A stretch of 64,000 bases of DNA. It comes from Pontibacter aquaedesilientis. Lineage in GTDB: Bacteria; Bacteroidota; Bacteroidia; Cytophagales; Hymenobacteraceae. The translations under genes and the position numbers were made by a program. The stretch is taken from assembly GCF_014773225.1 (NCBI RefSeq), contig NZ_JACXAJ010000010.1:62001-126000 (forward strand). The letters are read 5' to 3'. Shown piece by piece: positions 39,149-41,454 of this stretch (the stretch's first letter is position 1; each line of letters starts with the position of its first letter). The notes beneath the pieces are model-generated. The model saw nothing but the letters and a program-made list of their open reading frames with translations, had not been told where the DNA came from and searched no databases.

Positions 39149-40261
39149 TTACCGGCGGCCCTTTCCGGAAAACAGCTCTTCGATAACCCGCGCCTTTAGC
39201 ACAGTGGTGTCCATTTTTATTTCCAGCCGGATGGAGTCTTTTCTGGCTGCCATCAGCGTAGTGTCCATAGCCAGTTCCACTACCGTGGTGTCCACGCGGG
39301 GAACCACCACCACCGAGTCCATTGTGAAATTGAGCAGGCGGGCCACTGTGGGAGCAATGTCGATGAGGGTATATCGGGTTTCTATTTCTCCGCGCCTGAA
39401 ATCGGGGCCTAGTGCCAGCAGATAACTCTGTTGGCAGCCAGCGCAGTTATCGCCGTGCTCCATCCAGCCACCGTCTATCCCGTCCAGGTGACGGCCATGG
39501 TCTGTGGTGATGAGCAGTGTCGTGTTGCCTTTAAAAGGCGCTTGCTCATTCAGAAAATCCCAAAGCTCCTTCACATACCTGTCATTTCGCATAATACCCC
39601 GCAGGTAATATTCCTCGTTGCCGGCATGCGCATAGCCATCAGGCTCCATAAAGTTGATGAGCATCAGGTTAGGCTTGTGTGTGGCCAGCACCCGTTTTGC
39701 TTCTACCAGGGTAAGCGAATCCTGGCGGTAGCCGGTGCCGGGACCGTTCACGCCCGCATTCACCGACGGATTAAAGGTGCCCTTCCAGTCCGGGCGTTTG
39801 GTATCAGCCAGTATGTGTAGCTTGTCTTTGCTCGAAACGATCCAGGCGGAGGTTGCCGGTTTGCCTGTCTGCTTCAGATAATATTGAAAAATGGAGGGGT
39901 TAGCCGGAAGTTCATCGCCGTAATTGTCGATTGGCTGGTTTACCCCTGTCAGAATAGCGGCATGGCCGGAGTTGGTATAGGTATAGGCGTCATTATAGAA
40001 CTTTGGCAGAAAACTTCCCTCCTTTCTTAACTCGCCCGACATATTGGGAATCAGCCCAGGAGTTGCGCCCCAGGTTTCGGACCAGCGTGTCCCGTCGATC
40101 ACGACAATCACGACATACTCCGTGCGCATGCCTTTTTCTTTGGTATTCATGGAAGCACAAGACAATAGCAAAGCAATCGAAGTCAGGACCAATGCAGAGA
40201 ACAAGCCCCTACCGAACGTATAGCTTTTGTTTGTTCTGCGATCCTTCCAAAAAGGCTTCAT
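39149..40261 (-). CDS. Alkaline-phosphatase-superfamily lipoprotein
   Basis: A 370-residue protein with a lipoprotein signal (ALVLTSIALLLSCAS, Cys about 35). The metal and nucleophile motifs of the superfamily are present: VVIVVIDGTRWSETW, YTNSGHAAILTGV (the Ser or Asn-Ser nucleophile region), MEPDGYAHAGNEEYY, and LLITTDHGRHLDG followed by MEHGDN. Probably a periplasmic or surface phosphodiesterase/phosphatase. The C-terminal 60 residues (VDTTVVELAMDTTL and similar) are Val/Asp/Thr repeats not expected in the family. The substrate is unknown. Confidence 0.82.
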   Translation of the reverse strand: MKPFWKDRRTNKSYTFGRGLFSALVLTSIALLLSCASMNTKEKGMRTEYVVIVVIDGTRWSETWGATPGLIPNMSGELRKEGSFLPKFYNDAYTYTNSGHAAILTGVNQPIDNYGDELPANPSIFQYYLKQTGKPATSAWIVSSKDKLHILADTKRPDWKGTFNPSVNAGVNGPGTGYRQDSLTLVEAKRVLATHKPNLMLINFMEPDGYAHAGNEEYYLRGIMRNDRYVKELWDFLNEQAPFKGNTTLLITTDHGRHLDGIDGGWMEHGDNCAGCQQSYLLALGPDFRRGEIETRYTLIDIAPTVARLLNFTMDSVVVVPRVDTTVVELAMDTTLMAARKDSIRLEIKMDTTVLKARVIEELFSGKGRR

Positions 40262-40423
40262 GGTCTTAAGTCGTTGAATTATAAAAGATTCCCTTCATTA
40301 ATGTATACGAAACCAATATAAGTTATGGCGTAAAGGCCTTTACTTCGCGTGATCGTGCAAAACTTTGTCTATTATTTTGCGTTTGTCCCGAAATATCACG
40401 TCTTTGCGTACATCATAAACCAA

Positions 40424-40594
40424 ATGCATAAACAAGCAGCCATAGCGACCCTCGTTTTACCAATGCCTCTCGGCATGGAGCTGCTGCATGCTGTTTCCGC
40501 TGATTCCTATCGTGCGTCCTATTATTGCTACGGTTATTATTACCGCGGCTTTACGGCGCTCTCTCAGGCAATCAGGCGACTTTACAAGAAGTAA
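40424..40594 (+). CDS. Tyrosine-rich leader peptide of phhA
   Basis: A 56-codon frame (possible internal starts at 40463 and 40475 give 43 or 39 codons). Near its end it reads SYRASYYCYGYYYRGF: seven Tyr in 16 residues, including a YYY triplet at 40535-40543, then RRLYKK and a stop at 40592-40594. It lies 113 bp upstream of the phenylalanine hydroxylase gene, and a rho-independent terminator stands between. No protein family is recognised; its size, bias and position are those of an attenuator leader peptide whose Tyr codons measure charged tRNA-Tyr. Confidence 0.7.
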   Translation: MHKQAAIATLVLPMPLGMELLHAVSADSYRASYYCYGYYYRGFTALSQAIRRLYKK

Positions 40595-40663
40595 AAACCA
40601 GGGACAAACCAAAAAGGAACCCTGACTGATATAACTGAAGCAGAGCGAAAGCTCTGCTTTTTT
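40557..40663 (+). promoter_or_regulatory. Candidate tyrosine attenuator of phhA (terminator and antiterminator)
   Basis: Terminator: AAGCAGAGC-GAAA-GCTCTGCTT (40638-40659), 9 bp with a GNRA loop, then T residues to 40663. Alternative pairing: CGCTCT (40557-40562) and CAG (40565-40567) in the last part of the leader ORF can pair with AGAGCG (40642-40647) and CTG (40635-40637), taking away the terminator's 5' arm. A ribosome stalled on the YYY codons (40535-40543) would leave 40557 onward free; one reaching the stop at 40594 would cover it. No other plus-strand gene upstream needs a terminator here. Confidence 0.65.
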
Positions 40664-40707
40664 CATTTTATACCTAACTCAAACAACAAATTTTATAAAA
40701 CTCAACC

Positions 40708-41454
40708 ATGAACCTGACACAGAACTACAGCAGCTATACTCCAGAGAACCACCAGGTATGGGCCATCCTCTACGATCGGCAAATACATAACCTTCCGGGT
40801 AAGGCCGTACCCGAATTTTTGGAAGGGCTTGAGAAAGTAGGATTCAGCCGGGACCGTATACCTGACTTTGCTGAGGTAAACAGCAAACTGAAGCCCCTCA
40901 CAGGGTTTGAGGTTGTGGCTGCGCCAGGTATAGTAGACGACGCCTTGTTCTTCCAGCTCATCGCCAACAAGCAGTTTCCGGCCACGGTGTGGGTGCGCAC
41001 CATGCAGCAGCTCGACTACCTCGAAGAACCCGACATGTTCCATGACGTGTTCGGCCACGTGCCGCTCCTCACCATACCTGTGTACTGCGATTTCCTGGCT
41101 AAACTGTCCGAAATGGCGCTAGGTCACCTCGACCGCCCAGACATTATCGATCGGCTGACACGCATCTACTGGTACACCATCGAGTTTGGCTTGTTCCGCC
41201 AACCAGGTCAGCAAGCCCAGATCTATGGGGCAGGCATCCTTTCCTCGGTAGGAGAAAGCAACCTGTCTGTATCGGAAGAAAGCGTGAAGTTTGATTTTGA
41301 TGTGCAGCACATCCTGGATACAGGCTATATCAAAGAAACCTTCCAGAGTCAGTATTTCTGCATCAGCAGTTTTGAGCAGCTACGGGATAGCCTGCCAGTA
41401 ATCGAGAAGGCTTTGGATGAGTTGAGAAAGAAGGAATTTGCACCTCTGAACTAG
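40708..41454 (+). CDS. phhA: Phenylalanine 4-monooxygenase
   Basis: A 248-residue protein, the size of bacterial PhhA (catalytic domain only, no ACT regulatory domain). The iron-binding motif is intact: DMFHDVFGHVPLL with both His, and the Glu in YWYTIEFGLF. It hydroxylates phenylalanine to tyrosine with tetrahydropterin and O2. Its mRNA begins with a tyrosine-rich leader ORF and a hairpin terminator, so it is probably turned up when tyrosine is short, which suggests it serves tyrosine supply as well as Phe breakdown. No pterin-recycling gene is adjacent. Confidence 0.96.
   Translation: MNLTQNYSSYTPENHQVWAILYDRQIHNLPGKAVPEFLEGLEKVGFSRDRIPDFAEVNSKLKPLTGFEVVAAPGIVDDALFFQLIANKQFPATVWVRTMQQLDYLEEPDMFHDVFGHVPLLTIPVYCDFLAKLSEMALGHLDRPDIIDRLTRIYWYTIEFGLFRQPGQQAQIYGAGILSSVGESNLSVSEESVKFDFDVQHILDTGYIKETFQSQYFCISSFEQLRDSLPVIEKALDELRKKEFAPLN

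Follow-up and report, generated by a model that had tools for sequence, protein, structure and literature searches.

The enterobacterial trp, his, phe and leu attenuators combine a leader ORF carrying codons for the product amino acid, four competing RNA segments, an intrinsic terminator, and a biosynthetic gene downstream. In Firmicutes, the T-box of tyrosine genes senses tRNA charging and controls termination by binding the tRNA directly, without a leader ORF, and in Bacteroidota the Bacteroid-trp RNA is linked to trp genes. The latter (RF01692) is tabulated among the cis-regulatory RNAs of Bacteroidetes (PMC2864571), and TAnnTTTG is given as the Bacteroidota -7 element (PMC9723704, PMC7366714). 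For Flavobacterium psychrophilum, hints of leader-peptide attenuation upstream of amino acid biosynthesis operons, with a TAnnTTTG box, have been reported (PMC9723704).

The element described here precedes phhA, the phenylalanine hydroxylase gene, in a 64-kb stretch of the Pontibacter aquaedesilientis genome (the window, i.e., the whole stretch of DNA that was analysed). All the features of the enterobacterial attenuators listed above are also present in this leader, which differs from them in that it would sense Tyr and in its target, a hydroxylase making Tyr from Phe; many of its relatives differ also in the Bacteroidota -7 box located a few nucleotides before the leader ATG. With the T-box it would share the sensing of tRNA charging and the control of termination, but it has a leader ORF. 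An Rfam search (including Bacteroid-trp, the Trp, His and Phe leaders, and the T-box) found nothing in the window that reached gathering score and nothing exceeding it in 14 related loci, where Bacteroid-trp was also absent among matches at E up to 1. The system hinted at in F. psychrophilum resembles the phhA leader in its phylum, its association with amino acid biosynthesis genes, and its TAnnTTTG box, but the passages concerned name no Tyr leader or phhA, and the word "tyrosine" is absent from the main text (PMC9723704). In agreement with the original prediction, neither a Tyr-coded leader nor attenuation of phhA was found described in a full-text literature consisting mostly of papers available without subscription; while the attenuation mechanism is already known, its Tyr specificity and phhA target were not found in print. 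Judging from the sequence evidence presented below (recurrence in relatives, preference for native pairing arms, covariation, and genome context), the element is very probably a ribosome-mediated transcription attenuator of the classical kind that responds to charged Tyr-tRNA and controls phhA, as had been predicted.

The phhA product matched PF00351 (144.2 bits) and NF008877 (264.9 bits; cut-off 247), and its TIGR01267 score (264.0 bits) was slightly below the cut-off of 264.75. The 19 phhA loci nearest to that of the window in the comparison collection were all from Pontibacter. The gene is flanked on both sides by minus-strand ORFs; the upstream neighbour of the leader (39149-40261) is one of these, which bears out the claim that no plus-strand gene lies upstream of the leader. 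The features of the locus are as follows:

40376-40406, plus strand: possible promoter, weak and recognised by eye, with a -33-like TTTG (40376-40379) and a degenerate -7 box CGTCTTTG (40399-40406)
40424-40594, plus strand: Tyr-rich leader ORF of 56 aa (ATG at 40424, stop at 40592-40594), from ORF reading and relatives
40498-40508, plus strand: segment 1, pairing with 40566-40578, from the full-leader fold and, by eye, type-specific Pontibacter forms
40508-40543, plus strand: regulatory Tyr codons, seven in 12, read from the sequence
40558-40575, plus strand: segment 2, the antiterminator 5' arm, from the fold and the family swap test
40599-40624, plus strand: small hairpin (40599-40603:40620-40624) located between the two arms of the antiterminator, from the fold and, by eye, relatives
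40626-40646, plus strand: segment 3, the antiterminator 3' arm, which shares bases with the terminator 5' arm, from the fold and Pontibacter helix statistics
40637-40663, plus strand: intrinsic terminator with T-run (segments 3:4), from the fold and relatives
40708-41454, plus strand: phhA, phenylalanine 4-monooxygenase, from profile matches

The Tyr-rich small ORF predicted to end at 40594 is indeed present; its Tyr codons begin at 40508, 40520, 40523, 40529, 40535, 40538, 40541, and 40583. It is the sole place in the six frames of the window with seven Tyr within 16 stop-free codons, the runners-up being three places with five Tyr each. Synonymous codon differences reached 35% in the leader frame versus 23% and 19% in the other frames (181 non-independent pairs). 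It is worth mentioning that the N-terminal half of the leader (40424-40500), although it carries no regulatory codons, is conserved in Pontibacter as MHxPAAIAT..LP.

The predicted GNRA-loop hairpin and T-run before phhA were also recovered: the terminator stem (40637-40646:40651-40660) closes a GAAA loop and is followed by the T-run, and the fold of 40588-40668 (-24.0 kcal/mol, z -4.9) was equalled by none of 200 shuffles. In L029 and L292, the terminator loop region reads GCTTTCGC where GCGAAAGC is otherwise found, as an in-place inversion of the hairpin would give. The alternative pairing of the leader end with the terminator 5' arm proved longer than originally claimed. Folding of 40548-40647, i.e., the RNA present before the terminator 3' arm is made, gave the antiterminator (-26.5 kcal/mol, z -3.3, 0/200 shuffles), in which 40558-40575 and 40626-40646 form 15 bp (40558-40562:40642-40646, 40563-40564:40639-40640, 40565-40567:40635-40637, and 40571-40575:40626-40630). 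Since both structures use 40637-40646 (two bases there being unpaired), terminator and antiterminator are mutually exclusive. The small hairpin between the arms recurs, as judged by eye, in relatives with different letters.

The fold of the full leader contains the terminator together with a 1:2 helix (40498-40508 x 40566-40578), which was absent from the original prediction and which, as predicted by folding, would complete the classical four segments. Elsewhere in Pontibacter this helix was found by eye in type-specific forms (GATTGC:GCAATC, ATTGCCT:AGGCAAT, and ATTGCCA:TGGCAAT), and in some Pontibacter rows the best duplex differs from it.

The recurrence of these features was followed in 295 phhA loci, a Tyr cluster meaning that some 12-residue stretch of an upstream ORF holds at least four Tyr. 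Such a cluster was found in 120 of them. It occurs together with a terminator in all 42 phhA-bearing genomes among the 50 Pontibacter genomes searched, and the cluster is present in 19 of 19 further Pontibacter loci, which are probably of the same species as some of the 42. Beyond the genus, it was found in 12 of the 30 best loci at the family level, in 20 of 61 other loci, in 23 of 101 order-level loci (78 lacking it), four of 12 class- or phylum-level loci, and none of the 30 best phylum-level loci. A terminator lies 0-85 nt past the called leader stop (median 37 nt) in 115 of the 120 Tyr-leader loci. Tyr cluster, terminator and alternative pairing co-occur in relatives, as the original prediction would have it. 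The remaining five loci (L136, L140, L203, L240, and L262), with no terminator within 85 nt of the called stop, were excluded from the pairing tests. Two doubtful ones (L151 and L250) were kept among the 115 loci and the 48 representatives used below, but dropped from the tree, promoter and geometry sets. In L109 and L244, the leader and terminator lie 380-320 nt before phhA.

Outside Pontibacter the leaders are shorter (e.g., MTNMNSKYYYYYYYRITPFGVGVVCS in Fulvivirga, L086) and have little in common except the Tyr run and the RNA features. Algoriphagus loci (L096, L103, L121, and others) carry a strongly conserved short ORF, MNPTPRT[YF][VI]HHS, with one to three Tyr, which ends 166-361 nt upstream of phhA and is followed in several loci, as seen by eye, by GGAATAGG and a hairpin with CCTATTCC. 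Sensing of Tyr plus His, or nascent-peptide arrest, is possible there; the label "variant" used for this ORF type denotes a pattern defined after the sequences had been viewed.

The pairing between leader tail and terminator arm was analysed in 48 representatives. Native duplexes averaged -17.3 kcal/mol versus -12.8 kcal/mol for swapped arms, a value as low being reached in none of 20000 permutations and, within GC quartiles, again in 0/20000. When the tail was dinucleotide-shuffled for comparison, 20 of the 48 were significant at p<0.05, and the duplex of the window itself was not (z -1.3, p 0.126). Within Pontibacter (40 sequences; alignment without L002 and L003), a five-pair helix (79-83 x 143-147) had 87.7% of its cells paired versus 72.9 +/- 1.6 after shuffling (0/500). 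One of its pairs is C-G in 26 sequences, G-C in 12 and U-A in one, with none broken and one gap, and 19 of 39 rows cannot form the fifth pair; two of the five measures (pairs changed on both sides and further pair types) were no better than in shuffles. In a second alignment, of 22 hand-picked non-Pontibacter sequences, seven of the ten terminator pairs were changed on both sides (0/500 shuffles), and the high share of paired terminator cells is partly a matter of choice, because these sequences were picked for a clear leader and terminator. The antiterminator of the same 22 sequences showed no covariation gain over column shuffles (77/500), while its share of paired cells exceeded them (7/500); in this set it is conserved more than covarying. 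Native arms pair more strongly than swapped ones, and the co-variation proposed for the element holds for one Pontibacter pair and for the terminator, but not for the antiterminator of the 22 other sequences.

Across 46 representatives, the last Tyr codon and the first antiterminator pair are separated by a median of 14.5 nt (interquartile 10-17), which is close to the leading edge of a stalled ribosome. The end of the arm lies a median of 0 nt from the stop codon (range -17 to 26). In the window, 16 nt separate the end of the arm (40575) from the stop, and a ribosome standing on that codon would cover no more than the last few bases of the arm. The claim that the pairing site lies under a ribosome at the stop codon accordingly does not hold exactly in the window and fits the family better.

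As to the promoter, the -7 box of the window has two mismatches to TAnnTTTG. When the 38 nt before an in-frame leader ATG were scanned for this motif, 22 of 45 representatives had a perfect copy and 40 of 45 had one with no more than a single mismatch, versus 1/180 and 57/180, respectively, in shifted controls (two of the 180 being without sequence). L272 has no ATG and therefore lies outside the 45. No TTTG was found between the terminator and phhA in the window.

From these features we infer the following course of events. RNA polymerase would start just upstream of the leader, which would be translated behind it. When Tyr-tRNA is plentiful, the ribosome would pass the Tyr codons, segment 2 would be occupied or paired with segment 1, and the 3:4 terminator would form, ending transcription before phhA. 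When Tyr-tRNA is scarce, the ribosome would stall on the Tyr run, leaving segment 2 free just ahead of it; the 2:3 helix would then form and block the terminator, readthrough would increase, and the transcribed phhA would supply Tyr from Phe.

Genome content makes the argument that the output of the enzyme is the sensed amino acid tighter than originally claimed. The window genome (99.94% complete) has no match to PF02153 (prephenate dehydrogenase) or PF00800 (prephenate dehydratase), both of which were matched in 14 of 14 control genomes. PhhA is thus the only Tyr route found in this genome, in which an unrecognised Tyr-making enzyme is still conceivable. As no prephenate dehydratase was matched, the strain is probably auxotrophic for Phe, as are 15 others among the 50 Pontibacter genomes, and the Phe feeding PhhA probably comes from outside. 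Among the 50 Pontibacter genomes, prephenate dehydrogenase was above the cut-off in 27 and prephenate dehydratase in 34. All eight genomes without phhA have PF02153 above the cut-off, for which the chance would be about 0.004 if the genes were independent and kinship is ignored; prephenate dehydrogenase is also present in 19 of the 42 genomes with phhA. This relation was clean only within Pontibacter. At the order level, the idea that genomes with the Tyr leader strictly lack prephenate dehydrogenase was considered and rejected by eye, as leader genomes both with the enzyme (e.g., G059, G366, and G420) and without it (e.g., G063, G310, and G434) occur.

In 11 loci of another genus of the same family (g5, probably Hymenobacter), two phhA copies stand in tandem, and the Tyr cluster precedes the copy nearer to that of Pontibacter in 11/11 cases and the other copy in 0/11. 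The same pattern, with one leader-bearing copy, was seen in a twelfth two-copy locus (L146, genus g6). None of the 12 second copies has a Tyr cluster, the best of them showing three Tyr in 12 residues. In the PhhA tree (with L140 labelled as a leader locus by hand, since the detector had picked another ORF), the leader-bearing and other copies fall into separate clades, the latter with 0/28 leaders, and the leader label requires 13 changes over the whole tree.

A covariance model (R1) built from 22 Tyr leaders was run over 291 order genomes and matched 154 of them at E up to 0.01. Its 16 best matches are directly upstream of phhA, several being its own input sequences. The element of the window was not detected in this search, so it is tied to the wider family by its gene, its position, and two short-leader Pontibacter genomes (L002 and L003). 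Among the matches listed, 53 further ones were inspected (13 from the loci of the search itself and 40 fetched from other listed matches; L328, at a contig end, was left out), and in 44 of them the codon run fits, by eye, the downstream gene, one member of each gene class except phhA being checked by HMM. There were 16 His leaders, before hisH (12) or hisG (4); 24 mixed Phe/Tyr leaders, before genes for DAHP synthase (21), prephenate dehydratase (2), or chorismate mutase (1); two Tyr leaders, before phhA (L327) and an aminotransferase gene (L342); and two Ile/Val leaders before ilvE. The fit of the two prephenate dehydratase leaders is loose, because they are mixed Phe/Tyr with a Trp, and L354 was counted although its Tyr/Phe run has no ATG start. 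The nine uncounted matches are L329 and L357 (downstream gene undecided), L367 (no downstream ORF found), L353, and L347, L359, L361, L366, and L368 (no fitting leader seen). One of the His leaders, MKGTMAHLHHHHARSKSFGAVCLWICQ (L318, G000:C1:621786-621925), belongs to the window's own genome and stands with a similar terminator before hisH. Similar His leaders were seen in other Pontibacter (L316, L319, L320, and L325), and Phe/Tyr leaders such as YFTFFYFYF precede DAHP synthase genes (L321-L324, L339, and others; also L371).

These results bear on other explanations of the element. If the leader were a nascent-chain arrest peptide or a small protein, stalling would be caused by the peptide or a ligand and not by charged Tyr-tRNA. 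The conserved N-terminal half of the Pontibacter leaders, devoid of regulatory codons, and the conserved Algoriphagus ORF with its few Tyr would suit such a peptide, but the leaders beyond Pontibacter share little other than the Tyr run and the RNA features, and the similar leaders whose His, Phe/Tyr, or Ile/Val runs match the genes behind them would not be expected of an arrest peptide; we consider this explanation very unlikely. A plain terminator with fixed readthrough, next to which the Tyr-rich ORF would be incidental, seems even harder to accept and is highly improbable. Terminators are common, and the single-sequence duplex test of the window was not significant, but the terminator accompanying the Tyr cluster in 115 of 120 loci, the preference for native partners, and the covariation all argue against it.

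It may also be that the attenuator is real and PhhA serves mainly in Phe/Tyr breakdown or pigment formation, induction by Tyr shortage not being its main use. HPPD, a Tyr-breakdown enzyme, is encoded in the window genome and was above the cut-off in 48 of the 50 Pontibacter genomes, as this would lead one to expect. Induction by shortage, on the other hand, suits biosynthesis, as does the lack of prephenate dehydrogenase and dehydratase matches in the window genome, and fitness data indicate that the hydroxylase contributes to Tyr synthesis in Echinicola vietnamensis (PMC7311316), so that breakdown or pigment formation as the main role appears very unlikely. According to the same source, a biosynthetic role of the hydroxylase has been proposed for Dyella japonica and E. 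vietnamensis (both on fitness data) and for Legionella pneumophila (mutant growth). The Tyr leader was found in two other Echinicola species (L129 and L138). The preferred reading, a Tyr-specific attenuator of a Tyr-making PhhA, would make Tyr a further amino acid to which leader-peptide attenuation responds, and the leader would offer a sequence-only hint as to whether a phenylalanine hydroxylase is a tyrosine maker or degrader, a question that mutant fitness data have settled in the cases treated in PMC7311316.

The codon-matched leaders point to a set of Bacteroidota switches, with no Rfam match in the loci tried, in which the codon content would predict the pathway. We tentatively suggest, giving it somewhat less than an even chance, that a single Bacteroidota attenuator scaffold, with the leader ORF beginning almost at the transcription start, was duplicated and given new specificities by codon swaps, its Tyr version marking the Tyr-making PhhA copies. 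In that reading, the versions would be Tyr for phhA/tyrA, His for hisH/hisG, Phe plus Tyr for aromatic operons, and Ile/Val for ilvE; convergent use of a common terminator style, rather than common descent, is also possible. Two genomes illustrate the range of targets. In G381, a Phe/Tyr leader heads a same-strand ORF run in which DAHP synthase comes first and the last ORFs are PheA-like and aminotransferase (both as read) and prephenate dehydrogenase. In G348 (L342 and L370), a six-Tyr leader is followed by an aminotransferase, a PF02153 ORF, and an ORF resembling chorismate mutase. The phhA of G348 itself (L141) has no Tyr cluster. In L353 (G054), a diverged biopterin hydroxylase with 28% identity to the PhhA of the window lies behind an R1 match without a Tyr run.
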